Assembly (NCBI GenBank): GCA_012719535.1 | Contig: JAAYAC010000037.1 | Location: forward strand, 1-38,820 | DNA: 38,820 nt | Source of the DNA: Syntrophomonadaceae bacterium | GTDB lineage: Bacteria > Bacillota > Syntrophomonadia > Syntrophomonadales > Syntrophothermaceae | Reading direction: 5' to 3' | Part shown: positions 901 through 17,970 of the stretch, piece by piece | Numbering within the stretch: position 1 is the first letter of the stretch | Layout of the letters: every line of letters starts with the position of its first letter | The notes under the pieces: generated by a model | Databases searched by the model: none | The model's input: only the letters and a program-made list of their open reading frames with translations | Told to the model about the DNA's origin: nothing | Made by a program: the position numbers and the translations under genes

Positions 901-1857
901 ATGAAGGTACTGGTAGTAGGATTGGGAGCTCTGGGTACAGTCTTTTCGTGTTTACTGAAAGAGCAGGGGCATCAGGTCGCAGGCTTGGACCAGGAAACGG
1001 TAGTCAACTCAGTTAAGAACTTTGGTGTGAGAGTAACTGGAATCTGGGGAGAGCACGCAGTTTACCTGGATAACCTGTATACTGATGCTGAGCAAATAGT
1101 GGACCGGGATTTTGACCTTATTATTATGACTGTTAAGGCTTTTAACACCGCCCAGGTATCTGCCCAGGTATGCAGGTTAATGGGACCTCATACATATATG
1201 ATTCTGGCACAAAACGGGTACGGCAATTATCAGGCAGCAGCCGAAAACATACCTGAAGATAAGTTAATCCTTGGTAGAGTCATATTCGGGGCTGAAACAC
1301 TTGAAATGGGAACGTCTAAAGTCACCGTCATCGCTGATGACGTTATCCTGGGTTCCCCCAGGAAGCTCATTGACAACCAACTCTTATCCGAATTCGCCCG
1401 TTTCTTCACCGAGGCCGGCATTCCCACCCGTGTGTCCGACCAGGTTATGCAGTATATGTGGGGTAAGATAATATATAATTCTGCTCTTAATTCCCTTGGT
1501 GCCATACTGGAAGTAAACTACGGCCAATTAGCCGAAATGGAGTATTCACGCACACTGATGGACTGCATCATTCGTGAGATTTTCGCGGTAATGGCAGCGA
1601 TGCAAGAGCCAACCCTGTGGCCAAACGCCGATTCCTATCTGCAGGATTTTTATGGCAAAATGGTTCCCACCACTGCCGCCCACCATGCCTCCATGCTGCA
1701 GGATATCCAGCGTGGTAGAAGAACCGAAATCGAGGCCCTAAACGGCGCCATAGTTGAACTGGGCAAAAGATTTGGCGTACCTACTCCAGTCAATGAGGTG
1801 ATTACCCAGCTGGTGAAAGCTAAAGAGACATTAAACAGTTCATTTTCAATTCTGTAG
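901..1857 (+). CDS. panE: 2-dehydropantoate 2-reductase (ketopantoate reductase, PanE/ApbA family)
   Basis: A 318-residue protein of the size expected for the family. The N-terminal Rossmann motif GLGALG (residues 7-12) binds NADPH. The central KIIYNSALNSLGAI segment supplies the family's conserved Lys and Asn, and the C-terminal stretch RGRRTEIEALNGAIV is the family signature near the catalytic Glu. The enzyme reduces ketopantoate to pantoate in pantothenate/CoA synthesis, although many paralogues act on other 2-oxo acids. The ATG at 901 is preceded by AGGAAGG at a good distance. The gene stands alone, with no panB or panC nearby, so the pantothenate role is family-based rather than context-based. 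Confidence 0.85.
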   Translation: MKVLVVGLGALGTVFSCLLKEQGHQVAGLDQETVVNSVKNFGVRVTGIWGEHAVYLDNLYTDAEQIVDRDFDLIIMTVKAFNTAQVSAQVCRLMGPHTYMILAQNGYGNYQAAAENIPEDKLILGRVIFGAETLEMGTSKVTVIADDVILGSPRKLIDNQLLSEFARFFTEAGIPTRVSDQVMQYMWGKIIYNSALNSLGAILEVNYGQLAEMEYSRTLMDCIIREIFAVMAAMQEPTLWPNADSYLQDFYGKMVPTTAAHHASMLQDIQRGRRTEIEALNGAIVELGKRFGVPTPVNEVITQLVKAKETLNSSFSIL

Positions 1858-3197: not shown

Positions 3198-3616
3198 GCC
3201 AACACCTTACACTGTTTCGCATTTCCGCTAAGACTAAACATCATTGTAGGAAAATGCCCGCGGTTTCGTCAACACAACCGGAAGGACAAGGGAGCCGGTT
3301 TCGACCGCTTCACACCGGAGGGAAGCCATATCACAAAAGTATCAGGCTTTTTCTTACTAATGCAAGAATATTTCGGCATGCGTCGGGAAGGTATGAAAGA
3401 GCTTCCTGGTGATGTGGGGTAAAGCCTTTACCCTCCCCTGGGGCGTGTGGTCGAATGTACAAGATTGGACTTCCAAATAGACGTATAACTCGAGAGGCTC
3501 TCCTTACCAGTAGAAGGGGCCCCTTGCAACTTAAGGAAGTTGGGTTCTGCCTGAGCTTTTGTTCGAAGGAGACAAGAGAGCCGTCCCCGTGTTACGCTAG
3601 AAGGGAGGGATGCAGG
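3198..3616. other. Intergenic region between divergent genes; hairpins and one REP-like copy
   Basis: No gene is seen here. There is a perfect GGGTAAA/TTTACCC hairpin with a GCC loop (3417-3433), a GGGGCCCC palindrome and a CAACTT/AAGTTG pair near 3515-3545, and a copy of a dispersed repeat at 3571-3598. The downstream radical SAM frame stays open leftward to an ATG at 3455, but the extra residues are low quality and cover the repeat, so I treat this as leader. Confidence 0.5.
3571..3598 (+). repeat. REP-like dispersed repeat, copy 1
   Basis: The stretch contains AGCCGTCCCCGTGTTACGCT and closely matches 12176-12206, which has AACCGTCCCCGTGTCACGCT. Both copies lie in non-coding DNA beside genes. 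Repeats built around ACCGTCCCC...GTCAC are, as I recall, dispersed in many Peptococcaceae genomes. Confidence 0.55.
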
Positions 3617-4447
3617 TTGCCCGAAGAGATTATCCCTAGAGAAATATTGTGTAAATCTGCATTGAACAAGACGGGAATTCCTGGTTATGAATACTGCATG
3701 AATCCCTATGCAGGATGTACCCATCGGTGCGCTTATTGTTACGCTTCATTCATGTGCCGCTTTACCGGCCACCAGGAGAGCTGGGGCCAGTTTCTGGATG
3801 TAAAGGTGAATTTTCCCGCCATGCTGGAGAAGCAGTTAAGCGGCCGCTCACGCCGGGAAGGGCGGCTCATAGTGGGGACTGTTACCGATGCCTACCAGCC
3901 AGCCGAAGCCCACTATGGAATCACTCGTTCCTGTCTGGAGATACTATCCCATCATCCTGCGCTGGAAGTGCACATTTTAACCAAGTCTGCTCTGGTAGTC
4001 AGGGATCTAGCTATCCTGCGGCAGCTCCGTGCCTGTGAGGTCGGTTTTACCGTTACCACTCTCGAGCAAAAGACAGCGCAGCTTATCGAGCCTGGCGCTT
4101 CTCTTCCCAGGCAGCGCCTGGTGGCGGCCCGCCAGTTGATGCAGGCCGGTATTCCTGTTTGGGTATTTATAGCTCCGCTCCTTCCTGGATTATCGGATAC
4201 TGAAGAGTCCTTGGTCAACCTTTTGAGTACCCTTAATGATATGGGCATAAAGGAAATTTTGCTGGATTCCCTGAATCCCTATCCAGCCGTCGTGCAACGT
4301 CTAAGAAACATCTACCGTCAGTATTTCTCCTCTGCCCTGCCGTATCTGGAAGACTACTTACGCCACCCCGATGTTTACCAGGACATTGTAATTGACAGGC
4401 TCCAGCAGATCAATGAGCAGACCGGCTGCCAGGCCCATTTTATATGA
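3617..4447 (+). CDS. Spore photoproduct lyase-family radical SAM protein
   Basis: A 276-residue protein from the TTG at 3617, chosen because GGGAGGG lies about 7 bases upstream and because relatives begin near the IPREI...SALNKTGIPGYEYC segment. A longer frame back to 3455 runs through the repeat and is unlikely. The radical SAM cluster motif is CTHRCAYC (CxxxCxxC), following NPYAGC. Later motifs include GTVTDAYQPAE and the TKSALVVRDL strand. The family (Rv2578c/SplB-like) makes 5'-deoxyadenosyl radicals; true SplB repairs spore photoproduct, but this shorter branch is of unknown substrate. It carries no other recognisable domain. Its neighbours give no clear pathway. Confidence 0.85.
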   Translation: MPEEIIPREILCKSALNKTGIPGYEYCMNPYAGCTHRCAYCYASFMCRFTGHQESWGQFLDVKVNFPAMLEKQLSGRSRREGRLIVGTVTDAYQPAEAHYGITRSCLEILSHHPALEVHILTKSALVVRDLAILRQLRACEVGFTVTTLEQKTAQLIEPGASLPRQRLVAARQLMQAGIPVWVFIAPLLPGLSDTEESLVNLLSTLNDMGIKEILLDSLNPYPAVVQRLRNIYRQYFSSALPYLEDYLRHPDVYQDIVIDRLQQINEQTGCQAHFI

Positions 4448-7176: not shown

Positions 7177-9999
7177 CTATGACGGCACTACTGAGTTGAG
7201 ACTAAAACGGACGTAGAATATGGTCCCAGCCGGACTGGTTTCAACGTCAATACTCGCATTGTGGCGGCGGGCTATCCCGTAACAGACTGCAAGCCCCAGG
7301 CCCGTTCCCTGCTCCTTGGTGGTAAAGAAAGGTGTACCCAGTTTCTCAAGTTCCTCACCATTCATCCCGTGACCTTCATCTTGAACAACTAAAACAATGT
7401 GGTCGTCTTCTCTAAACGTCCTTATATCCAGGGTTCCCCCCGGGGGCATAGCTTCCAGCCCGTTACGCGCAAGGTTAAGTATGAGTTGTCGTATTTCCTT
7501 CTCATCCAGGAGCAGCTGGGGTAGCTGCTCCAGTCCCACCCTTACCTTTTGGTCCTTAACCATGGCATTAGCTTGAATCAAAGGCAGGATAGCCATTATG
7601 ATTGTGTTGAGATTTCTCGCCTTCGGTTCAACAATCTTGTCCCGGGCCAGAGAGAGGAATTCAGTTATTATTGAGTTGGCACGATCTAATTCCTCAATCA
7701 TGAGGTCGAAGTATTCCTGCCCTTCAAGATTTTTCTCGCTACCCCTGAGCACCTGTAAGAAACCGCGCACCGTGGTCATGGGGTTACGGATTTCATGGCC
7801 GATACTGGCCGCGATTTGTCCCACCAGGTTCAACCGCTCGAGTTGGGCCATTTCCTTTTGCATCCGTTTTCGCTCTGTAATGTCTCTAATCACACCCAGC
7901 ACATGCAGCTTGCCTCCAATGTCCATTGCGTCTGCAGAAACAAGCCCGGTGCGTTCTTCCCCTGATTTAGTCCTGAAGGTAATTTCCCGGTTCCGGACCG
8001 TACCACTTTCCCGTACTCCCATGAAAACCCTATCACGCTCTTCCGGATTGACCCAAAACTCGAGGTCAGTAGCCGAGCGGCCTATGACTTCGTGGCGAAG
8101 ATAACCGGTGGTATTCAAAAAACTATCATTTACATCAACATATACCCCTTCCTCAAGGGTGCTGATGGTAATCAGGTCTGGGCTGGAACGAAAGGCCTTG
8201 GAGAACTTCTCCTCCGACAGGCGTAAGGCCGTCTCCGCTTGCTTCTGGTTCGTAATATCAAGCCCGAATTTCAGTACCATTTTAGTCCCGTCAACGTCAT
8301 AAAAGGGAAAGCCATGCCACCGGTATGTGTGCCCGTCCGGAAAGGTCCCATCCCAACACAAAGGGCTATCCTTCTCATGTACCTGCAGTGCATGGCATAC
8401 ATTACACGGCTCTATACGGCCGTACATGAGCTTGTAACACGGTTGACCGTTCGGTTTACCAAAGCGTTCCCAAAAGAACTTATTCGCAAACGGGATCGAA
8501 TAGTCCGGCTTCAGCAGGTACACCAGGGCCGGGAGCCCGTCCAGGACGGAAAATAGCCGGTTTCTTTCCACCTTCAATGCCTCTTCCGCATGCTGCCGCC
8601 GGGCGTTTTCCTCTTGCAGCCGTTCATTCGTAGCCTTCAGGTCATTGGTGCGTACTTCCACGAGTTTTTCAAGGTAATCATGATATTCCCCGATCTTCTG
8701 TTCCATAAGCTTGCGGCTGGTGATGTCAGTCATGACGTTAATCAATAATCGGGGTTTACCGTCTGCACCCCTAACCACAGCCGAGTTGCATTCTACCGGA
8801 AATCGCGATCCGTCCCTTCTAACGCAGGTATATTCAAGGTTTCGAAGGACGCCCTCTTTCAGGGTCTTTTCCAGGTTCAATCTGGCACGGTCCGCATCCT
8901 CGCGGATAATCAGCGCAAGAAGACCCTCACCAATTATCTCGGATACATCGCTATATCCGTACATGCTTGCGGTTCGTTGGTTGGCCAGTAAAATTCTTCC
9001 TTCCAGGTCAGTAACAGTGATGGCGTTGGGGGATGTTTCTACCAGCGAACGATACAGTTCCTCACTACTACGTAAGGCTTCTTCAGTATGCTTACGACAA
9101 GTGATGTCGGTATGTGTACCGGCCATGCGAAGCGGGTACCCCTGTTCGTCTCTTGCCACCACCTTGCCGCGGGCTAGAATCCATTTCCACTCCCCGGTTT
9201 GGGTTAAGAGCCGGAATTCGGCTGCATAGTAGGGGGTATTCCCTTCCAGGTGTCGCTTAAGTTCGTTCATCACCGCATCCCTATCGTCCGGGTGAAGTGC
9301 TCTTGCCCATGTGCTGAAATTCGGTTCAACTTCACCCGGAGAATAGCCCAGCATTTCAGCCCACCGGTGACTGTAATAAACCTCATTTTTCCTGATATCC
9401 CAATCCCAAAAGCCGTCATTACTCCCGTCTAAAACCAGCTGCAGGCGTTCCTCGCGCTCCCTGATTGTTTTTTCGGCCTCCAACCTGCGCATTTTCTCCA
9501 CTCCCATGGAAGTCAGAAGTCGGGTACATTTCAACAAAAACGACATGATGGATTCCATGCGTTCGCCGGGGATGACGGGGACGCGGCTCAGGGCTTCCAG
9601 GTAGGCTGATTGGTCAAACCCGTACTCTCGCGCCTGCTGGCGAAAAAACTCCTCGTTGGGAGGCTCATTCAGTACCTGCCCGGTGAATATCGTCCCCAGA
9701 TGTTCGTTGTCCACAATGATGGGAGAGGCGTAATCCATGAGCCCGTTCAAACACTGGTAGGCGATATAGGCTCCCTGTCTCAAATGATTCTTTATGAAAC
9801 TATCACTCACCCGACAGCGAAACTCGGTTTGTGGGCAGCAGCGATGGAACTTCTCGCATATGTCCCGCCAACCGGCTTTGACCAGTACAGTACCGTCTTG
9901 GTCCAGGATGGCCCAAACCATGCCGGTCAGTGCGTAGAAATCCTCCATCAATTGCTGTAACGCCGGAATATCAAGTAAATCTGCCAATTGGTATCCCAC
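7177..9999 (-). CDS. PocR-PAS sensor histidine kinase (orphan)
   Basis: A 940-residue protein starting with GTG at 9999 behind GGAGGGAG. The order is: PocR ligand-binding domain (about 8-165, with C48, C54, C55, C62 and YQCLNGLMDY), PAS (185-302), PAS (312-430), coiled coil (432-478), Cys-bearing PAS (480-585, C521/C532/C535), PAS (595-712), HisKA with H735 in GHEIRNP, and HATPase with N box NLARNGLEAM and G boxes DEGHGM and GTGLGLAVCYG. There is no membrane segment, so it is cytosolic. The H-box style (HEIRNPMTTVRGFLQ) is that of Bacillus sporulation kinases. No response regulator is nearby, so Spo0A or Spo0F is a plausible but unproven target. Confidence 0.9.
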   Translation of the reverse strand: MGYQLADLLDIPALQQLMEDFYALTGMVWAILDQDGTVLVKAGWRDICEKFHRCCPQTEFRCRVSDSFIKNHLRQGAYIAYQCLNGLMDYASPIIVDNEHLGTIFTGQVLNEPPNEEFFRQQAREYGFDQSAYLEALSRVPVIPGERMESIMSFLLKCTRLLTSMGVEKMRRLEAEKTIREREERLQLVLDGSNDGFWDWDIRKNEVYYSHRWAEMLGYSPGEVEPNFSTWARALHPDDRDAVMNELKRHLEGNTPYYAAEFRLLTQTGEWKWILARGKVVARDEQGYPLRMAGTHTDITCRKHTEEALRSSEELYRSLVETSPNAITVTDLEGRILLANQRTASMYGYSDVSEIIGEGLLALIIREDADRARLNLEKTLKEGVLRNLEYTCVRRDGSRFPVECNSAVVRGADGKPRLLINVMTDITSRKLMEQKIGEYHDYLEKLVEVRTNDLKATNERLQEENARRQHAEEALKVERNRLFSVLDGLPALVYLLKPDYSIPFANKFFWERFGKPNGQPCYKLMYGRIEPCNVCHALQVHEKDSPLCWDGTFPDGHTYRWHGFPFYDVDGTKMVLKFGLDITNQKQAETALRLSEEKFSKAFRSSPDLITISTLEEGVYVDVNDSFLNTTGYLRHEVIGRSATDLEFWVNPEERDRVFMGVRESGTVRNREITFRTKSGEERTGLVSADAMDIGGKLHVLGVIRDITERKRMQKEMAQLERLNLVGQIAASIGHEIRNPMTTVRGFLQVLRGSEKNLEGQEYFDLMIEELDRANSIITEFLSLARDKIVEPKARNLNTIIMAILPLIQANAMVKDQKVRVGLEQLPQLLLDEKEIRQLILNLARNGLEAMPPGGTLDIRTFREDDHIVLVVQDEGHGMNGEELEKLGTPFFTTKEQGTGLGLAVCYGIARRHNASIDVETSPAGTIFYVRFSLNSVVPS

Positions 10000-10339
10000 T
10001 GATTCACTCCCTCCAAGAATTAAAGAATTCCGGGTTTCACCCGTTAACTCTCAATGGTAAGCACAGTTCTATGATTTTCTACGGCGAACGACGTGTTACC
10101 TTTAGAGTTTTTGTCGTGTTTTGTCGGCCCGGCCAAATGAGGCTTGTCTGGCTGGACAAATCTTCTAACCTTATAGAATCGGCCCGGTATCTACTGATGT
10201 CGTATCCGTGACACCGTTTGTTATCATGGTTACCGTAGCGGGGATATTCAGCCAGGCGGGCTGGAGTTGGAGTCGAAGGGAATTTTGCGAGGCCATATTC
10301 CTCTCGTTGTATACACCTTCAGCTGGACGGCCGGGTGCC
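10000..10339. other. Intergenic region upstream of the PocR kinase; no gene seen
   Basis: 340 bases without a credible gene. The only structure noticed is a repeated TCGGCCCGG (near 10123 and 10179) around the segment GGCTTGTCTGGCTGGACAAA. The promoter of the PocR kinase must lie here, but I could not pick a convincing -35/-10 pair. Confidence 0.4.
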
Positions 10340-11992
10340 CTAGTGGTTAGATTGTTGAAGAAGTTGTACCCTCAGCCCGTCTTTGAGGTCGCTTAAGGGT
10401 ATTTTGAACTCAGGTATTCCTGCCGCATAGGGGGCAATTTCGTAGAGCCCGAAATAGATGACCAGGTTTCCGTCTGCGATATAGTAGCTTTGATCATCGG
10501 CGATGGTGGTAAATCCCATACCGGGCTGGTCAAAGTAGTCACTGGGAGCCGCGGCAATCTGTTCCCGGATGGCCTGGTTAAGGACTGCCTTGTAATCAAA
10601 ACCGTCCCGGAACAGGTCTTTTAAGGCAAGGTCTTTACCGGTATTCAGGTCTATATTGTAGGCTCTGCGGTTAGTAAAGCCATGAGCCCCGCCGGTATAC
10701 TCGTAATAATCAACATAAAGGCTCAGGTACCCTTCGCTATTACTACATTCCTGGTAGCGAGTTACCACCTCGTAAGGCCTGATGGGATAACCCTGCTCTT
10801 TACATGCCTTTACGTACTGCTCCAACTCCGCAGCTATTTTCTGTTTGAACGCCATAGCCTCGGTTTCCCAACGGGAATTAAGGGACGACTGGATATCTTT
10901 ATCCTCGAGTGCGTCAATAGCCGGTATTTCCATGTCCACACCCAAGGTTTCTGATTGCTCCTTCAGCTTTTTGGTGATAAGAGGAATCCTTTGTTCCGAA
11001 TCCGCAGCCGGGGTTACAGCCACCCTTAGCTTGAAGGTCTGAGCCGGGGCATTCTTTTCCCAGGGACGGGAATAAGCCAGGCAGAGCTCAGTACTGCCCA
11101 CTTGTAGCGCCTCAAATCTCCAGTAGCTTCTCCCCCCTTGACCAGGCAGCGGGGAACCGGCACTTTTATCAGCCCGGTAGTAGTGGTCCGTCTGGGTCAA
11201 TACCTTTTTGTCGTAAGGACTGGTGAAGTCCCACTGGTAGCCGGTGCTATTATTAGCAGGTAGAGATAATACGAAAGTCCGGCCGGGCGCTACCGGGTAT
11301 TCCTTGCCGTTATAATTTTCATCTACATCTACCTGGCTTTCCATTACACTCAGGGCATTAGCTATAATTTGGGCCAGCTCAGCCCTTTTCACTGCATCTG
11401 CGGGGCGGAAGTAACGGCCGTCGCCTTTCATGATGCCGGTATTGGTCACAAAGGCCACCGCATTCATGTCCTGTGGTGATAAATCGCCGGTATCCTGGTA
11501 AACGGGCATGACCATAATCATGGGTATGCTTATTCCTTTGACATCAAAACAATTCTTAATAGCCCGGGCCATTTCTATTCTAGTTATGGGTCTGTCAGGG
11601 TAAAAATAGACACTGCTAGCAAAGATTTCGTTGATGGCGCACAGCAATGTCGCATCCGCATACCAGGCCTGGTTGTTAAGATCCCGATAATAATCGCTGG
11701 GTAAAGGCTGCTTGATGAAGTGCATCTTACCATAGTCCAGCCGGAACGCCCGGGCCAAAACACAAGCCGCCTGGGCCCGGGTTGCCACTGCTTCCGGAGC
11801 GAAGATGGGAAACCCCTGGGCATTGCTTCCGGTACCCTGCATAAGACCCCGGTTGTATACCTCCAGAATAGCCTGCTGGTACCGGTGCCCTTTGATATCA
11901 ATAAAACCACCGGGGGCCGGCTTGGCCAGTCCTGCCGCCGGGTTGGCCACCAGAAAAGATGCGGTGAATAACACTGCCATAGTTTTTTTCAT
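10340..11992 (-). CDS. Secreted SLH-domain protein with chagasin-like and DUF4163/DUF3298 domains
   Basis: A 550-residue protein from ATG 11992 (GGGG upstream); the longer open frame is rejected because this ATG begins a clear signal peptide (MKKTMAVLFTASFLVANPAA). Three S-layer homology repeats follow (about 28-85, 98-152, 162-215), which would anchor it to the cell wall. Residues 225-327 look like a chagasin/I42 cysteine-protease inhibitor: NNSTGYQW (248-254) matches the NPTTGY loop, and GGRSYWRFEAL plus YSRPWE match its other loops. Residues about 345-545 resemble DUF4163 plus DUF3298 (RsiV/PdaC-like): YEYTGGAHGF and LNTGKDLALKDLF. The combination suggests a surface-anchored sensor or inhibitor. 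It lies 224 bases downstream of cotJC. Confidence 0.82.
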   Translation of the reverse strand: MKKTMAVLFTASFLVANPAAGLAKPAPGGFIDIKGHRYQQAILEVYNRGLMQGTGSNAQGFPIFAPEAVATRAQAACVLARAFRLDYGKMHFIKQPLPSDYYRDLNNQAWYADATLLCAINEIFASSVYFYPDRPITRIEMARAIKNCFDVKGISIPMIMVMPVYQDTGDLSPQDMNAVAFVTNTGIMKGDGRYFRPADAVKRAELAQIIANALSVMESQVDVDENYNGKEYPVAPGRTFVLSLPANNSTGYQWDFTSPYDKKVLTQTDHYYRADKSAGSPLPGQGGRSYWRFEALQVGSTELCLAYSRPWEKNAPAQTFKLRVAVTPAADSEQRIPLITKKLKEQSETLGVDMEIPAIDALEDKDIQSSLNSRWETEAMAFKQKIAAELEQYVKACKEQGYPIRPYEVVTRYQECSNSEGYLSLYVDYYEYTGGAHGFTNRRAYNIDLNTGKDLALKDLFRDGFDYKAVLNQAIREQIAAAPSDYFDQPGMGFTTIADDQSYYIADGNLVIYFGLYEIAPYAAGIPEFKIPLSDLKDGLRVQLLQQSNH

Positions 11993-12099
11993 CCGCGAAT
12001 CCCCTGCCTTTGCTTCATAATAGTTCCTGCTACAACTTATTACGCCACCCTGCTGCCAAGCTTTCAACCTGTCTGTTTTCCCCCGAGCGCACGCACAGT

Positions 12100-12125
12100 A
12101 AACCAGGGGCTTCCCCCTGGTTTTG
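12100..12125. terminator. Strong hairpin between cotJC and the SLH gene
   Basis: AAACCAGGGG (12100-12109) pairs perfectly with CCCCTGGTTT (12114-12123) around a CTTC loop. A T-rich tail follows on the plus strand; only three Ts follow on the minus strand. It could terminate or attenuate cotJ transcription. Confidence 0.55.
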
Positions 12126-12175
12126 TTAACTGCGTTATTCAGGGGACCATCTCCTGACACGCTCGTGGCATCTGT

Positions 12176-12206
12176 GCGTGACAGAAGAACCGTCCCCGTG
12201 TCACGC
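12176..12206 (+). repeat. REP-like dispersed repeat, copy 2
   Basis: GCGTGAC (12176-12182) pairs with GTCACGC (12200-12206), and the loop contains AACCGTCCCCGT. It matches copy 1 at 3571-3598. It lies just beyond the cotJC stop and could add an mRNA 3' hairpin. Confidence 0.6.
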
Positions 12207-12216
12207 TTACGACAAG

Positions 12217-12801
12217 TCAACGTTCCATAATAAAGTAGTGGTTTTTCCCGTAGTGGTCATACAGGTGTTCAAGGGTTTCGCCGAATCGTTGATAATGTAC
12301 TACTTCTCTTTCGCGAAGCCATCTCAGGGTTTCCGTTACTCCCGGATCATCGGAAAGCTGTATCAGGTATTCGTAGGTGGACCGGGCTTTCTGTTCCGCA
12401 GCCATATCCTCATGCAGGTCGGTAATCGGGTCCCCTTTCGACTGAATGTAGGAAGCTACCCAGGGAACCCCCGAACCATTCACGAAATAGAGGGCACGAT
12501 CGTGATCAGCAAAGTACCCGTCCAAACCGACTGCCTTTATTTGTTCGACAGTAGCATCCTTAATGAGGTTATAGACAAGGGAAGCCACGATTTCCATGTG
12601 GGCTAATTCTTCCGTTCCTATGTCGTTGAGAACGGCTTTTGATCTTCCTGTCGGCATGGTATACCTCTGCGTCAAATACCTCAATGAGGCGGCAAGCTCG
12701 CCATCGGGGCCGCCGTATTGCGTAATAATCACCTTGGCAAGCTTGGGGTTGGTGCTACACACTTTGATAGGGTACTCCAGCTTTTTTTCGTAAATCCACA
12801 T
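12217..12801 (-). CDS. cotJC: Spore coat protein CotJC (manganese catalase family)
   Basis: A 194-residue protein of the usual CotJC length. The di-metal ligands of manganese catalases can be placed: E35 (GPDGELAASLRY), E65 and H68 (GTEELAHME), E136 (EDMAAEQKAR) and H169 (EREVVHYQRFGE). CotJC is deposited in the spore coat with CotJA and CotJB and may detoxify peroxide. It is the last gene of a cotJA-cotJB-cotJC run with an 18-base gap from cotJB. In B. subtilis the operon is transcribed by mother-cell SigE. Confidence 0.95.
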   Translation of the reverse strand: MWIYEKKLEYPIKVCSTNPKLAKVIITQYGGPDGELAASLRYLTQRYTMPTGRSKAVLNDIGTEELAHMEIVASLVYNLIKDATVEQIKAVGLDGYFADHDRALYFVNGSGVPWVASYIQSKGDPITDLHEDMAAEQKARSTYEYLIQLSDDPGVTETLRWLREREVVHYQRFGETLEHLYDHYGKNHYFIMER

Positions 12802-12819
12802 TCCTGTTATCCCCTTTCG

Positions 12820-13080
12820 TTAGGCAAAATTAATTTCCCAGGGCCAGGGTTCTTCGACCCATCTCCACGGGTACTCACTAGGGACATAACCGAAGTTGGT
12901 AAGGGGACCGTACTTCTTTTCATACTGCTGTTTTAATTCTGCCAATCTCTTGACTGTCTGGTTGTAATCGTCCAGGGCTTTTCTGTCGTCGGGATGAGTG
13001 TCAAGGTACAAGTTGAATTCAACGGCGGTGAATTCTTCAGCCATTATCATCATAAGCAGCTGTTTACGCTCTCTGTCCAA
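12820..13080 (-). CDS. cotJB: Spore coat protein CotJB
   Basis: An 86-residue protein matching the CotJB pattern: an N-terminal EEFTAVEFNLYLDTHPDD helix, a middle ALDDYNQTVKRL and an aromatic C-terminus (EYPWRWVEEPWPWEINFA). Relatives have the same length and the same Trp-rich ending. It overlaps cotJA by 17 bases and precedes cotJC, so the three proteins are co-translated. It is a coat structural partner of CotJC. Confidence 0.93.
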   Translation of the reverse strand: MDRERKQLLMMIMAEEFTAVEFNLYLDTHPDDRKALDDYNQTVKRLAELKQQYEKKYGPLTNFGYVPSEYPWRWVEEPWPWEINFA

Positions 13081-13264
13081 AGAACCTCACTCCCTTCCTA
13101 CCCCCATCGGTCTCTTTCTTGCCACTGCGCTGGGGCTCGTACGGCATATATAGCTCTGGAAAAATGGTACCTTTTTGCAGCCCCTCCATCGGCGAGAGCT
13201 TCTTGGTGTATTGTTGGATCTTGATATAGGCTCTGGCCAGCTGCATCTCGTCAGTAGTTTTCAT
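13064..13264 (-). CDS. cotJA: Spore coat protein CotJA
   Basis: A 66-residue protein with the CotJA signature: LARAYIKIQQYTKKLSPMEG then LQKGTIFPELYMPYEP. The start ATG at 13264 has GGGGGA about 7 bases upstream. It is the first gene of the operon. The C-terminus is basic (GGRKGVRFFGQRA). CotJA is required for CotJC assembly into the spore coat in B. subtilis. Confidence 0.92.
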   Translation of the reverse strand: MKTTDEMQLARAYIKIQQYTKKLSPMEGLQKGTIFPELYMPYEPQRSGKKETDGGRKGVRFFGQRA

Positions 13265-13294
13265 ATAAGAATCCCCCTTTCAGGCATTTACTCT

Positions 13295-13302
13295 ATACTA
13301 TG
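13295..13302 (-). promoter_or_regulatory. Candidate SigE-type -10 element for cotJABC
   Basis: Minus-strand CATAGTAT lies about 30 bases before the cotJA start and resembles the SigE -10 consensus (CATACA-T). The -35 region (ACAAATAC) is a poor match, so this rests mainly on the -10 and on the known SigE control of cotJ. Confidence 0.3.
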
Positions 13303-13542
13303 TAGAGCAAACCGTATTTGTTAATGTTTACTAAACCTGCGCAAGAGCAAACACCAAGAGGCTCCTTCCTTGAGTTTCTCAAGTTAACGCAGTTAAATAT
13401 TGTCAATCATAATCCGCAACACAATCTCTATATTGTGGCAAATCGTGGTAAGCAAATGGTAGGGATTGGCTGGAGAAGAAAGGGGTTGTCCTAAAGAACT
13501 AAACCTGCTCAGTTATTCGGCTGTAATACCTGACCCGTTCCG

Positions 13543-13722
13543 CTATTCCTTTTCCGCCCTGACTCGGTACCATTCCAGCCATATACGCTGGGCGGAGGTA
13601 ATTTTAAGAACGGCGGCATTGTATTTTTCCGCCACATCGGCAATCTTCCGCAAAGTCTGTGGGTCGGTAATTCCTCCAGGAATATGTGGTACTATGGCGT
13701 ACGATTGCTTATTCCTCTGCAA
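13543..13722 (-). pseudogene. Fragment of a nitrite/sulfite reductase ferredoxin-like domain
   Basis: On the minus strand, a 59-codon frame from TTG 13722 (GGAAG upstream) reads QRNKQSYAIVPHIPGG, then TDPQTLRKIADVAEKYNAAV and LKITSAQRI. This is the ferredoxin-like half domain of sulfite/nitrite reductases and related small sulfite-reductase-like proteins (PGG...LRKIADVAEKY...K.TSAQRI). After AQRI the sequence degenerates and stops at 13543-13545; the usual LVGLKEED-type continuation is missing. It is probably a truncated relic. A very short functional protein cannot be excluded because the frame is open and has a start and a ribosome site. Confidence 0.65.
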
Positions 13723-13916
13723 ACTTCCTAAAAACTAAGGATGCAAAAAGATCGTCCCCTTGCTTCCTTGAATACTTCTTTCTATTTCGGGCACACTAAG
13801 AACGATAACCAGATAGCCGGTGGCGCCCGCAGGCGCTTGTACCGGTTCTCCTGTTCAAACCCAGGTGTGTCAGTTGATTTGTCCTGATTTTATATCTGTA
13901 AAAGGAGGGTTGCAGA

Positions 13917-14036
13917 ATGTCCGACAGAGATAACGCCCGCCAGCAGAAGTCGCAACAAAGGCGGGAGCAAAGCGACAGGCAAGACCGGCTGGAAAGCAGT
14001 AAAGATGACTCTGCATGTCAATCCCGGGACAGCTAA
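13917..14036 (+). CDS. Small hydrophilic 39-residue ORF of unknown function
   Basis: The ATG at 13917 is preceded by AAAAGGAGGG at ideal spacing, among the best ribosome sites in the window. The product is very charged: it starts MSDRDNARQQKSQQRREQSD and ends in DSACQSRDS, with a single Cys near the end. There is no membrane segment or signal peptide. It is followed by two hairpins, the first with a short T tail. Its setting beside coat and sporulation-kinase genes suggests a small spore protein, but I recognise no family. It was found from the ribosome site rather than by length. Confidence 0.6.
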   Translation: MSDRDNARQQKSQQRREQSDRQDRLESSKDDSACQSRDS

Positions 14037-14069
14037 TATCTTGCACCCGGGGTTCTGCCCGGTTAACCC

Positions 14070-14095
14070 AGACCACCTGCCAGGGGTGGTCTTTA
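14070..14095 (+). terminator. Rho-independent terminator after the 39-residue ORF
   Basis: AGACCACC (14070-14077) pairs with GGTGGTCT (14085-14092), followed by a short TT tail. It lies 34 bases after the stop. Confidence 0.6.
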
Positions 14096-14098
14096 CAT

Positions 14099-14128
14099 AA
14101 CACCCGGCATACCAGGTTGCCGGGTGTT
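14099..14128. terminator. Perfect 11-bp hairpin between convergent genes
   Basis: AACACCCGGCA (14099-14109) pairs perfectly with TGCCGGGTGTT (14118-14128). There is no T-run on either side. It probably ends transcripts of the kinase at 14168 from the minus strand. Confidence 0.5.
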
Positions 14129-14167
14129 ACTACGCAACGGGCTTTCGCTTACCAGCCCGCCAGCCAG

Positions 14168-15655
14168 CTATCTCGTGGAAGCAGTTGACGATTCGAGCAG
14201 CTGACCAGGCGGAACAGGTCGGGCAAAGCGAACATAGAAGGTAGTACCCGTTGCCCCGGTTTCAACGTCTATAACGGCGTTGTGCCGGGCAGCTATGCTG
14301 TAACAGACGGATAGCCCCACGCCCGTCCCTTTTTCCTTGGTGGTGACAAACGGCCTTCCCAGCTTGTCGATAATTTCTTGGGGTATCCCGCAGCCCTGGT
14401 CCTGTACGGCCAGAACCACTTCGCCGTCCTGGAGATAGGTTCTTATAACCAGTGTTCCCCCCGGTTCCATTGCTTCCAAACCATTTCCGCACAGGTTAAG
14501 TATAACCTGACGGATTTCTTGTTCGTCCAGGGGTATATCTGGGACTTTGCCCAGGTGTGCCTTCAGATTCTTATCTTGTGCGGTAGCAGCCGCTTGAAGC
14601 AAGGGAAGCAAGGTGGCAACTATGGAAGAAAGGTTTCCCGGTTCATGTTTAACTGGCTTATCCTTGGCCAGCAGGAGAAACTCTCGAATTATGGCATTGG
14701 CGCGGTTCAGTTCCTCAATCATGATATCAAAATAGCCTTTTTCTTGAAAGTACTCTTCCCTCTCTCGCAGCATCTGCAAGAAACCGCTGACGGTAGTCAT
14801 GGGGTTTCTTATTTCATGGCCGATACTGGCCGCGATTTCTCCCACCGTATTCAACCGGTTCAAACGCGCCAGTTCTCTCTCCACGCGTGTCTTCTCGGTC
14901 ATGTCCGTCAATATTCCCAGCATGCAAAGCTGACCATCAATATCAACCAGTTCGGCGCCAAACAGCGCCAGCCGGACCTCACCCGATTTGCTCCTGTATC
15001 GGAGCCATCGTTCCTGAAAGGCTTTGCTCTCAGCAATTTCCTGCAGTGCCTCTTCCAGTTCTGCTATGTCTACCCATATATCCAAATCTTTTAATTGATG
15101 CCCCACCATCTCTTCCCGGTGAAAGCCGATGGCGGCCAGAAAACGGTCGTTGACATCTATGCAGCGCCGTTCAGCCAGTGAACAGACAAACATCAGGCCG
15201 GGAGAAACACGAAAAATCTTGGCCAATGTCTCCTTCAACTTCGTTAAAGACTCTTCCGCCTGCTTCTGTGGCGACTGGTCATACACAAAGGCATAATAGT
15301 AGAGTACAGCCCCGCCGTCATCAACAACCTTATGTACCAGCAGCTCTACGGGTATGCTGGCCCCGTCCCTGGTCTGTAACTCTGCCTCAATACGCAATGG
15401 TTCCTGAGTAGCCCTGGTTAGAGCCAGCCAGCTTCTGTCAGGATGATGGAGCTGAAATCCAAGCCCAATGGAGGCAGACATGTTCCGTAGCTCTTCTTCC
15501 ATAAAGCCGGTAAGCCTCCTGAAGGCGGAATTACACATCATAAAGCTACCATCGGGGTAATAAGCAATAAACGGTTGAAAGGAATGCTCAAAGATCTCTG
15601 TCAAGAACTGAAAACGCTGCCGATGCTGCACCTCTTGTTTGAGACTTGCTAGCAT
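14168..15655 (-). CDS. PAS sensor histidine kinase (orphan), two PAS domains
   Basis: A 495-residue cytosolic kinase. PAS 1 spans about 18-135 (FEHSFQPFIAYYPDGSFMMC, FRRLTGF) and PAS 2 about 140-257 (LAKIFRVSPGLMFVCSLAER, IDVNDRFLAAIGF). HisKA has H280 in ASIGHEIRNPMTTVSGFLQM, and HATPase has NLCGNGLEAM, DQGCGI and GTGVGLSVCYS. ATG 15655 has GGTGAG upstream. The HisKA/HATPase part is a close paralogue of the kinases at 7177 and 16024. No regulator is adjacent. The sporulation-kinase-like H box makes a phosphorelay role possible. Confidence 0.9.
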   Translation of the reverse strand: MLASLKQEVQHRQRFQFLTEIFEHSFQPFIAYYPDGSFMMCNSAFRRLTGFMEEELRNMSASIGLGFQLHHPDRSWLALTRATQEPLRIEAELQTRDGASIPVELLVHKVVDDGGAVLYYYAFVYDQSPQKQAEESLTKLKETLAKIFRVSPGLMFVCSLAERRCIDVNDRFLAAIGFHREEMVGHQLKDLDIWVDIAELEEALQEIAESKAFQERWLRYRSKSGEVRLALFGAELVDIDGQLCMLGILTDMTEKTRVERELARLNRLNTVGEIAASIGHEIRNPMTTVSGFLQMLREREEYFQEKGYFDIMIEELNRANAIIREFLLLAKDKPVKHEPGNLSSIVATLLPLLQAAATAQDKNLKAHLGKVPDIPLDEQEIRQVILNLCGNGLEAMEPGGTLVIRTYLQDGEVVLAVQDQGCGIPQEIIDKLGRPFVTTKEKGTGVGLSVCYSIAARHNAVIDVETGATGTTFYVRFARPVPPGQLLESSTASTR

Positions 15656-16023
15656 TTTCTCACCGCCCGTTACGCCACTCTTACCTCTGGGGATCTGAAC
15701 ATCTGGAGTTGGTTTTTCCTTTTAATGGTTAATAATGCCATCATTATTCTAACATAATAGTTCGGTTTTTTGTTGCGACCATTGTCACTGATCGCAGTCG
15801 GCCATACGTCACTACATTTGGTGACTAACTTATAAGGCCCGATACCAACAAGCCCGATGGTTACTGCAGACGCGTGTATCCTGTTCCTATCAGTCTGCCA
15901 GAGTTACCAGCGTGGTATTCCCTTCTCCCCTTCCCATTGATAAACGTACCACAACCCACCAGAGAATGTTGCCACAATTTGTCAGAAGCCACAACTCTGG
16001 TCTGATGATAGGACCACCTCGTT
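15656..16023. other. Intergenic region between two kinases; no gene seen
   Basis: 368 bases with AT-rich stretches near 15720-15770 that probably hold the promoter of the kinase starting at 15655. A short minus-strand frame here has no recognisable content. A GAGAAGGG octamer on the minus strand (15920-15927) matches the B. subtilis SpoIIIE recognition sequence, pointing toward dif. Confidence 0.4.
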
Positions 16024-17970
16024 TCAGCCAGTTAATACAACGCGGCCCGGAGTTTGGCTGAAGCGGACAAAGAACGTAGTGCCGCACGGGCCGGTTTCCA
16101 CGTCGATTGTCGCTCCGTGACGGGCTGCGATACCATAGCAGACAGGTAGCCCCAGCCCGGTACCATTTTCCTTGGTGGTTACAAAAGGAGTACCAAGCTT
16201 CTCGAGCACACCCAGCGCTATGCCGCTACCTTCGTCATGAACCGCCAGGACAATGTCTTCATCCTCTATGAACGTCCTGATAAGCAGCGTTCCCCCCGCA
16301 GACATTGCCTCCAGGCCGTTATGGGCCAGGTTAAGTATCAGGTGGCGAATCTCTTTCTCATCCAGGAAGAGGTCGGGAACCTCGCCTGTTTCCAATTCCA
16401 CATGCTTGTCCTGGGCGGTTGCACCGGCCTGAATCAGCGGTAAGATACTGTTGACAATCGAGTTGAGGTTCCTGGCTTCGACGTCAATTACCTTGTTCCT
16501 GGCCAGGAAAAGAAACTCAGCAATGATGGCGTTGGCTCTATCCAGTTCTTCGATCATGATATCGAAGAATTCCTTCGTTTCGTTGTTTTCCTTGGCTTCC
16601 TTCAATAACTGCAGAAACCCGCGCACGGTGGTCATCGGGTTTCTTATTTCGTGCCCGATGCTGGCTGCCATTTCTCCCACCAGGTTCAAACGTTCTAGAC
16701 GTACCATTTCCTTTTCCATCCGTTTGCGCTTGGTGATATCGTTCAATATGCAGAGCATATAAGGCTCATCCCCGATGTCGATCATCTGTACCGACAACAG
16801 GCCGACACGCATGTCACCGGATTTCGTGCAAAAGCTGACTTCATGGTCGATCAGACCGTTGTTGTCGATAATGCTCTGCCGGATGCCGTGGGCATTCTCT
16901 GACCCCGCCCAGAAGTTAAGCTCCCCCATGGTCTTGCCCAGAGCCTCTTGACGCTCGTACCCGGTGACGCGGCAGAAACTGTGGTTGGCGTCAATCAACT
17001 TCCCGTCCTGGAGAGAAGCTATGAACATCATCACCGGACTGTGGTTGAAAGCCTTCGCAAACCGTTCCTCCGACAAGGAAAGTGCCTTCTGGGCTCGCCT
17101 GCAATCGGTGACATCCTTGGCAATGCTCAGCAGGTGCGGTATTCCGCCCACGTCGATGACTTCCGCGCCCATGAGCATGGTGCGGATCTCGCCTGACTTT
17201 AACCGAAGGTCTACCTCCCAGTTGCGTACCATCCCCTCTTTCCGCAAAAGCCGGACGAGGCGCTCGCGATCCCCGGGAGTCCCCCAAATGTTCAAATGAG
17301 TGGAAGAACGACCTATGACCTCTCGCCGGTCGTATCCCATCGTGCGCAGGAAGCTGTCGTTTACCTCCACGTATCGCCCGTCCTCTAGGGTGCTGACGGT
17401 GACCAGATGCGGGGAGGAGTAAAAAGATCGGGGAAACTTTTGTTCCGACCAGTACGGGACCATTGCCGCTTGCCCGCGCTCCGTAATGTCCACAGAAAAT
17501 GTCAACACCAGCTCGCCGCCCTTAACGTTAGGGAAAGGACAACTGTAAGACTGATATACACGCCCATCACCAGCTGTCCACTCCCACTGCAGGCTGGTGC
17601 CGTTGCCGCGTACCTGCAAGATGGGACATACCTCGCACGGCTCCAAGCGGCCCCGCAGCACCCGGTAACAGGGATCTGCCATCGGGGCGCCGAAGCGTTC
17701 CCGGAAAAAGAAGTTGGCGTACGGAATGGAGTAATCGGAGGCCTGCAGGTACACCAGGGCCGGAAGCCGGTCAAAAACCGCCCAAAAGCGTCTTCTCTCT
17801 GCCTTGAGCACCTCTTCGGTTTCCAAACGCCTGCTCATCTCTAAGGCTAATTGCTGCTTGGTCCGGTTAAGTTCCTCAGTGCGTAACTTGACAAGCTCCT
17901 CGAGGTGTTCGTAAGTTATAGGACCGGCCACAGCCGGCTCAGGTTCATCTAATGTCGGTTGTTTGTTCAT
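16024..17970 (-). CDS. PAS sensor histidine kinase (orphan) with Cys-bearing PAS
   Basis: A 648-residue cytosolic kinase. The order is: coiled coil (about 20-60), a Cys-bearing PAS (62-172) with C101, C112 and C115 in DPCYRV and EPCEVC, PAS (about 178-295), PAS (about 298-420), HisKA with H440 in ASIGHEIRNP, and HATPase (NLAHNGLEAM, DEGSGI, GTGLGLPVCYG). ATG 17970 has GGAGGTG upstream. The coiled coil plus Cys-PAS plus PAS plus kinase core parallels residues 432-940 of the PocR kinase, so the two arose by duplication. No response regulator is nearby. Confidence 0.9.
   Translation of the reverse strand: MNKQPTLDEPEPAVAGPITYEHLEELVKLRTEELNRTKQQLALEMSRRLETEEVLKAERRRFWAVFDRLPALVYLQASDYSIPYANFFFRERFGAPMADPCYRVLRGRLEPCEVCPILQVRGNGTSLQWEWTAGDGRVYQSYSCPFPNVKGGELVLTFSVDITERGQAAMVPYWSEQKFPRSFYSSPHLVTVSTLEDGRYVEVNDSFLRTMGYDRREVIGRSSTHLNIWGTPGDRERLVRLLRKEGMVRNWEVDLRLKSGEIRTMLMGAEVIDVGGIPHLLSIAKDVTDCRRAQKALSLSEERFAKAFNHSPVMMFIASLQDGKLIDANHSFCRVTGYERQEALGKTMGELNFWAGSENAHGIRQSIIDNNGLIDHEVSFCTKSGDMRVGLLSVQMIDIGDEPYMLCILNDITKRKRMEKEMVRLERLNLVGEMAASIGHEIRNPMTTVRGFLQLLKEAKENNETKEFFDIMIEELDRANAIIAEFLFLARNKVIDVEARNLNSIVNSILPLIQAGATAQDKHVELETGEVPDLFLDEKEIRHLILNLAHNGLEAMSAGGTLLIRTFIEDEDIVLAVHDEGSGIALGVLEKLGTPFVTTKENGTGLGLPVCYGIAARHGATIDVETGPCGTTFFVRFSQTPGRVVLTG

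Follow-up and report, generated by a model that had tools for sequence, protein, structure and literature searches.

Three histidine kinases, K1, K2 and K3, encoded close together on one contig of a Syntrophomonadaceae genome, have the sequence features of sporulation kinases of the orphan, soluble, PAS-containing type represented by KinA and Dtox_1918 and most likely belong to that group. They probably feed Spo0F, then Spo0B and then Spo0A. The window, meaning the whole stretch of DNA that was analysed, is the entire contig C10 (38.8 kb) of a 2.49 Mb draft genome. Computation on this genome found intact domains, orphan status and matching specificity residues in the three kinases, together with a complete relay gene set.

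In the proposed mechanism, an internal cue would be sensed by the N-terminal PAS or PocR domains of each kinase, which would then autophosphorylate on the H-box histidine (H735 in K1, H280 in K2, H440 in K3). The phosphoryl group would pass to Spo0F, the stand-alone receiver encoded on contig C166, and Spo0B (C17) would relay it on to Spo0A (C115). K1–K3 and a fourth orphan kinase (C29) would supply a small set of inputs to a single relay. Phosphotransfer by K1–K3, the sign of their effect (kinase or phosphatase) and their signals are what we infer from the sequences. The system would add a lineage outside the Bacilli whose genome shows a Bacillus-type phosphorelay, with several PAS kinases converging on a single Spo0F; K1–K3 leave the known picture of the phosphorelay unchanged.

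Three orphan PAS kinases on one contig

K1, K2 and K3 are intact open reading frames, each with HisKA and HATPase_c domains above the Pfam cut-offs. Their H box, GHEIRNPMTTV, which the preliminary description called almost identical, is exactly identical, and all three have the N, G1, F and G2 boxes. Pfam places PAS domains N-terminally in every one of them, as in orphan relay kinases, and PocR in K1 only. The three look soluble, because a crude hydropathy scan found no 19-residue window of mean above 1.4. The earlier claim that they lack response regulators was borne out by the absence of any PF00072 receiver match on contig C10, with 24 such matches elsewhere in the genome; K1–K3 have no two-component partner gene nearby over the 38.8 kb contig. 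The best NCBIfam whole-protein model for each kinase is AtoS, although all matches to AtoS, ZraS and KinD fall far below the cut-offs: K1–K3 score 204–233 bits against 646 for the AtoS equivalog NF008468, and 168–173 bits against 775 for the KinD equivalog NF053867.

Table 1. Coordinates of the kinases, their parts and the neighbouring genes in the window.
Feature	Position	Strand	Description	Basis
K1	7177..9999	(-)	940 aa, GTG start, PocR (aa 7-166), several PAS, HisKA (H735), HATPase_c	ORF, Pfam
K1 core: last PAS + HisKA + HATPase	7195..8220	(-)	specificity residues TTGFQV	
K1 Cys-PAS	8245..8574	(-)	CYKLMYGRIEPCNVC	
K2	14168..15655	(-)	495 aa, two PAS, HisKA (H280), HATPase_c; specificity TTGFQM	ORF, Pfam
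K3	16024..17970	(-)	648 aa, Cys-PAS + further PAS, HisKA (H440), HATPase_c; specificity TTGFQL	ORF, Pfam
K3 Cys-PAS	17473..17802	(-)	CYRVLRGRLEPCEVC	
cotJA	13064..13264	(-)	66 aa	PF11007 E 3.3e-15
cotJB	12820..13080	(-)	86 aa	PF12652 E 1e-30
cotJC	12217..12801	(-)	194 aa, manganese-catalase family	PF05067 E 4.7e-57
SLH - chagasin-type inhibitor - PdaC - DUF3298 surface protein	10340..12220	(-)	lies downstream of cotJC; ATG start probably near 11992	

Homology among K1–K3 is far beyond chance (E 1e-122 to 2e-138), and by this measure they are paralogs in a broad sense. The preliminary description was right about their reading frames, H box and orphan status and about the cotJ genes between them, and wrong in calling their ATPase cores almost identical and in confining their differences to the sensor parts. 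Over about 340 residues (last PAS, HisKA and ATPase), K1 and K3 are 58% identical and K2 is 52–53% identical to either. All three have in common the PAS adjoining HisKA, and a second, cysteine-containing PAS (Cys-PAS) is shared by K1 and K3; upstream of the core these two kinases are 49% identical over 279 residues, Cys-PAS included. When 106 cores were ranked by their match to K1, K3 came 5th and K2 52nd, and the top four lay outside the window, in other genera. Judged by such identities, the cores of K1–K3 are no closer to one another than to kinases from other genera.

For the trees, a set of 125 cores was stripped of sequences under 300 aa, of exact duplicates and of surplus copies of the window kinases. 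Adding K1–K3 and the C29 kinase gave 108 rows, and a 69-row set was left once 30 near-duplicates and 9 rows that were long or outgroup had been taken out. The first tree placed K1 near K3 and K2 apart, beside a kinase from G002, a genome of the same family, with weak support. In an AU test, a single clade of K1, K2 and K3 was not rejected (p 0.57). The topology is soft, because the free 69-row search overlooked better trees that group K1 with K3, or all three together. A recent local triplication is not supported by the identity ranks, which speak against it for K2, and is compatible with the AU result.

Relay components and specificity residues

Spo0A is encoded on contig C115 and scores 387.9 bits against the TIGR02875 cut-off of 200. 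The Spo0F candidate on C166 is a REC-only protein of 119 residues, whose gene is preceded by the C-terminal part of CTP synthase and followed directly by fba and transaldolase; the Spo0B candidate on C17 is an SPOB_a protein flanked by rpmA and obg, with rplU nearby. The same gene-neighbourhood markers were used for Spo0F and Spo0B by Davidson et al. 2018 (PMC6136694). The genome contains Spo0A and both of these candidates in their conserved neighbourhoods.

Specificity residues of kinases and receivers were read at presumed offsets derived from B. subtilis sequences. At these offsets K1–K3 are of the relay type, K2 and K3 matching a printed relay kinase at six of six positions and K1 at five. 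The H-boxes could be read in 13 of the 14 HisKA hits in the genome: four match relay kinases at 5–6 of 6 and nine at 4 or fewer, two of these nine reaching 4. The four are K1, K2, K3 and the C29 kinase (L054:7302-8345, G000:C29), an orphan of relay type with 347 aa, one PAS and the residues TAGFQL, as printed for KinA. On the receiver side, the Spo0F candidate has six of seven Spo0F residues and the other 23 of the 24 receivers have two or fewer; Spo0A carries five of the seven residues of D. acetoxidans Spo0A. A 109-residue open frame without HisKA (L005, G000:C37:24868-25164) encodes an ATPase domain of the histidine-kinase type and may reflect a broken kinase or an error of assembly.

A working phosphorelay is reported for Desulfotomaculum acetoxidans (PMC6136694), where orphan PAS kinases carry TTGFQM, TTGFQL or TTGFQF and where Dtox_1918 (TTGFQL) phosphorylates Spo0F and not Spo0A. 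The kinases listed in Table 1 of that paper (Dtox_1918, 0091, 2569, 3426, 3834 and 3081) are orphan and PAS-containing like K1–K3, and that genome has Spo0F, Spo0B and Spo0A, as here. Compared by printed specificity residues, TTGFQL equals K3 and TTGFQM equals K2, whereas K1 ends in V (TTGFQV) and three kinases are packed here within 11 kb. Bacillus subtilis KinA is likewise a soluble multi-PAS orphan kinase that feeds Spo0F; its printed residues, TAGFQL, differ from those of K1–K3 at the second position, and the sensors here, unlike those of KinA, include PocR (K1) and Cys-PAS (K1 and K3). Since the kinase residues match those of D. acetoxidans relay kinases, and the Spo0F candidate alone among the receivers has matching residues, the likely route runs from kinase to Spo0F to Spo0B to Spo0A. 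The preliminary description had the kinases feeding into Spo0A activation; the genome, with its Spo0A, Spo0F and Spo0B, agrees with that destination, and the residues point to Spo0F rather than to a direct route.

The HEIRNP class of H-box is common to AtoS and ZraS. AtoS being the top NCBIfam model for K1–K3, and an NtrC-type regulator (L035, C18) being present in the genome, the kinases could serve a non-sporulation receiver, such as an NtrC-type regulator as with AtoS and ZraS; this is a remote prospect, as L035 adjoins its own kinase (L008) and has two of seven Spo0F-type residues, and every AtoS or ZraS match lies far below its cut-off. It is highly unlikely that K1–K3 phosphorylate Spo0A directly, as in Clostridium acetobutylicum, with Spo0F and Spo0B serving other inputs. 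Spo0A is available in the genome and direct phosphorylation is reported in several Clostridia (PMC11210211), but the best agreement with any of the three printed C. acetobutylicum direct kinases is 2 of 6 residues for K1 and K2 and 3 of 6 for K3, the relay gene set is complete, and Dtox_1918, whose six residues are identical to those of K3, is reported not to phosphorylate Spo0A (PMC6136694). That one or more of the three act mainly as a phosphatase or relay antagonist instead of an activator is unlikely, though it has precedents in clostridial orphan kinases that lower sporulation and in the bifunctional KinC and KinD (PMC11210211); K1–K3 carry no sequence feature that separates the two roles, and their ATPase boxes are all intact.

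Distribution of the kinases and of Spo0F

Searching GTDB genomes for the patterns [IM]AASIGHE and IRNPMTTV returned at least 565 relatives, so the H-box signature is common, not rare. Among the matches listed are Syntrophomonas, Pelotomaculum, Desulfotomaculaceae, Desulfosporosinus, Heliobacterium, Brevibacillus, Neobacillus and others; the best 80 of the at least 565 were analysed as named loci. Residues at H+7/+11/+12/+14 in 125 cores, a set that includes duplicates and window copies and was chosen partly by H-box, read T/G/F/Q in 81, T/G/Y/Q in 27, T/G/L/Q in 7 and otherwise in 3, with 7 unreadable.

Within the window's order, an exact HEIRNPxT site occurs in 47 of 61 genomes and a Spo0F-like gene in 52 of 61 (protein search, at least 100 bits; next best 82.5). 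Such a kinase is present in 44 of the 52 genomes with a Spo0F-like gene versus 3 of the 9 without (one-sided Fisher p 0.003, a value that ignores kinship and draft-genome gaps). The three exceptions of the latter kind are G017, G040 and G057. A Spo0F-like gene without an HEIRNPxT site was found in the same-family genome G001, which has Spo0A, and in seven other genomes; as G001 is one contig with Spo0A and a Spo0F-like gene and no HEIRNPxT kinase, another kinase type must feed the relay if G001 sporulates. A doubt about Spo0F as partner had arisen from the strict DNA pattern VDDQxGIR, found in 6 of 61 genomes, and was overturned by the protein search; 26 of 30 fetched Spo0F-like genes carry V where the pattern demands I. 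Kinases of this type are paired within 15 kb nine times, in 7 of 60 other genomes of the order, and three in one stretch occur in the window alone among the 61. The arrangement is ordinary for this bacterial group.

Sensor domains and the cotJ neighbourhood

The Cys-PAS of K1 and K3 carries the motif CYxxxxGRxEPCxVC, whose three cysteines (C-x10-C-x2-C) are invariant across 14 aligned copies and possibly form a putative metal or redox site. An AlphaFold2 model of the K3 copy has a PAS fold (mean pLDDT 91.5), and its comparison with solved structures gave PAS-like matches, 126 PDB entries at E ≤0.001. The domain also occurs in kinases of other genera (L056, L057, L058, L084, L087, L088, L094, L111, L112 and L118). 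Two pairs of K3-like kinases, L096/L056 and L092/L057, have the K3 layout of Cys-PAS followed by PAS and core and are roughly 50% identical to K3 along almost its full length; unlike the window, they are single genes with no cotJ within the fetched stretch. PocR and the same kinase core are joined in 21 ORFs of the fetched loci, K1 included and some being copies of one another. The PocR-PAS-HisKA kinases of Syntrophomonas and relatives (L101, L105 and L061) combine PocR with K1's core type, and K1 differs from them in additionally having a Cys-PAS.

PocR is a predicted sensor of simple hydrocarbon derivatives, according to a 2005 title cited in PMC1592074. Literature searches within one paper collection returned no paper linking the PocR domain, a histidine kinase and sporulation, none on Syntrophomonas sporulation with Spo0A and a histidine kinase, and nothing specific on the Cys-PAS among the papers listed. 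The kinases most likely take different internal signals, as had been proposed, though only in part, since K1 and K3 share the Cys-PAS. PocR and the Cys-PAS are concrete leads to the signals that make such anaerobes sporulate.

Between K1 and K2 lies the cotJ spore-coat operon that had been noted earlier, with cotJA, cotJB and a manganese-catalase-type cotJC adjacent and in one direction. Across the 61 genomes of the order, cotJB has 13 sites in 12 genomes, and an HEIRNPxT kinase shares the contig at two of the 13, in the window and in G002, both of the window's family. In G002 the kinase and cotJB are on one strand, 7.4 kb apart, and two further genomes of the family, G001 and G003, have neither cotJB nor such a kinase, as would be expected if kinases and cotJ made up a conserved sporulation island. 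Such an island is nevertheless quite improbable: at cotJB sites outside the family, none of 11 has such a kinase on the same contig, some of these contigs perhaps being short, cotJ stands in the flanks of one of 80 named kinase loci, which is the same G002 locus, and in the trees the G002 kinase has no clear ortholog relation to any single window kinase. Very unlikely, too, is the broader reading that the family's kinases and cotJ would be a co-inherited sporulation locus in which K1 and K3 sense through their three-cysteine PAS, linked to a metal or to redox state, and K1 has PocR as a further, ligand-binding sensor, so that a syntroph-like anaerobe would be prompted to sporulate, via Spo0F, when it meets an oxidant or loses a small organic substrate. 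Because linkage is seen at the window and G002 alone, cotJ is at best a family-level neighbour, and it adds little to the sporulation theme that it had been thought to strengthen. The cotJ genes are most likely neighbours outside the mechanism by which K1–K3 would feed Spo0F, and the surface protein downstream of cotJC is a neighbour outside the relay.

A promoter and terminator scan gave 17 promoter-like and 17 terminator-like sites versus 10.2 and 11.7 expected, and these sites carry no weight in the readings above. Between cotJ and K2, on the opposite strand to both, a 39-codon Arg/Gln/Ser-rich ORF (13918-14037, +) is preceded by an AGGAGG-like site and followed by inverted repeats. A radical SAM protein (3455-4447, +) gives a weak, below-cut-off match to spore photoproduct lyase (E 2.3e-05). 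In Syntrophomonas sp. UBA4922 a relative of the surface protein (L097:5099-6445; 53% over 231 aa) is encoded some 2.7 kb away from a same-group kinase, and in Syntrophomonas palmitatica a gene (L085:11460-12440) 60% identical to the ketopantoate reductase-like gene at 901-1857 (+) directly adjoins a same-group kinase.
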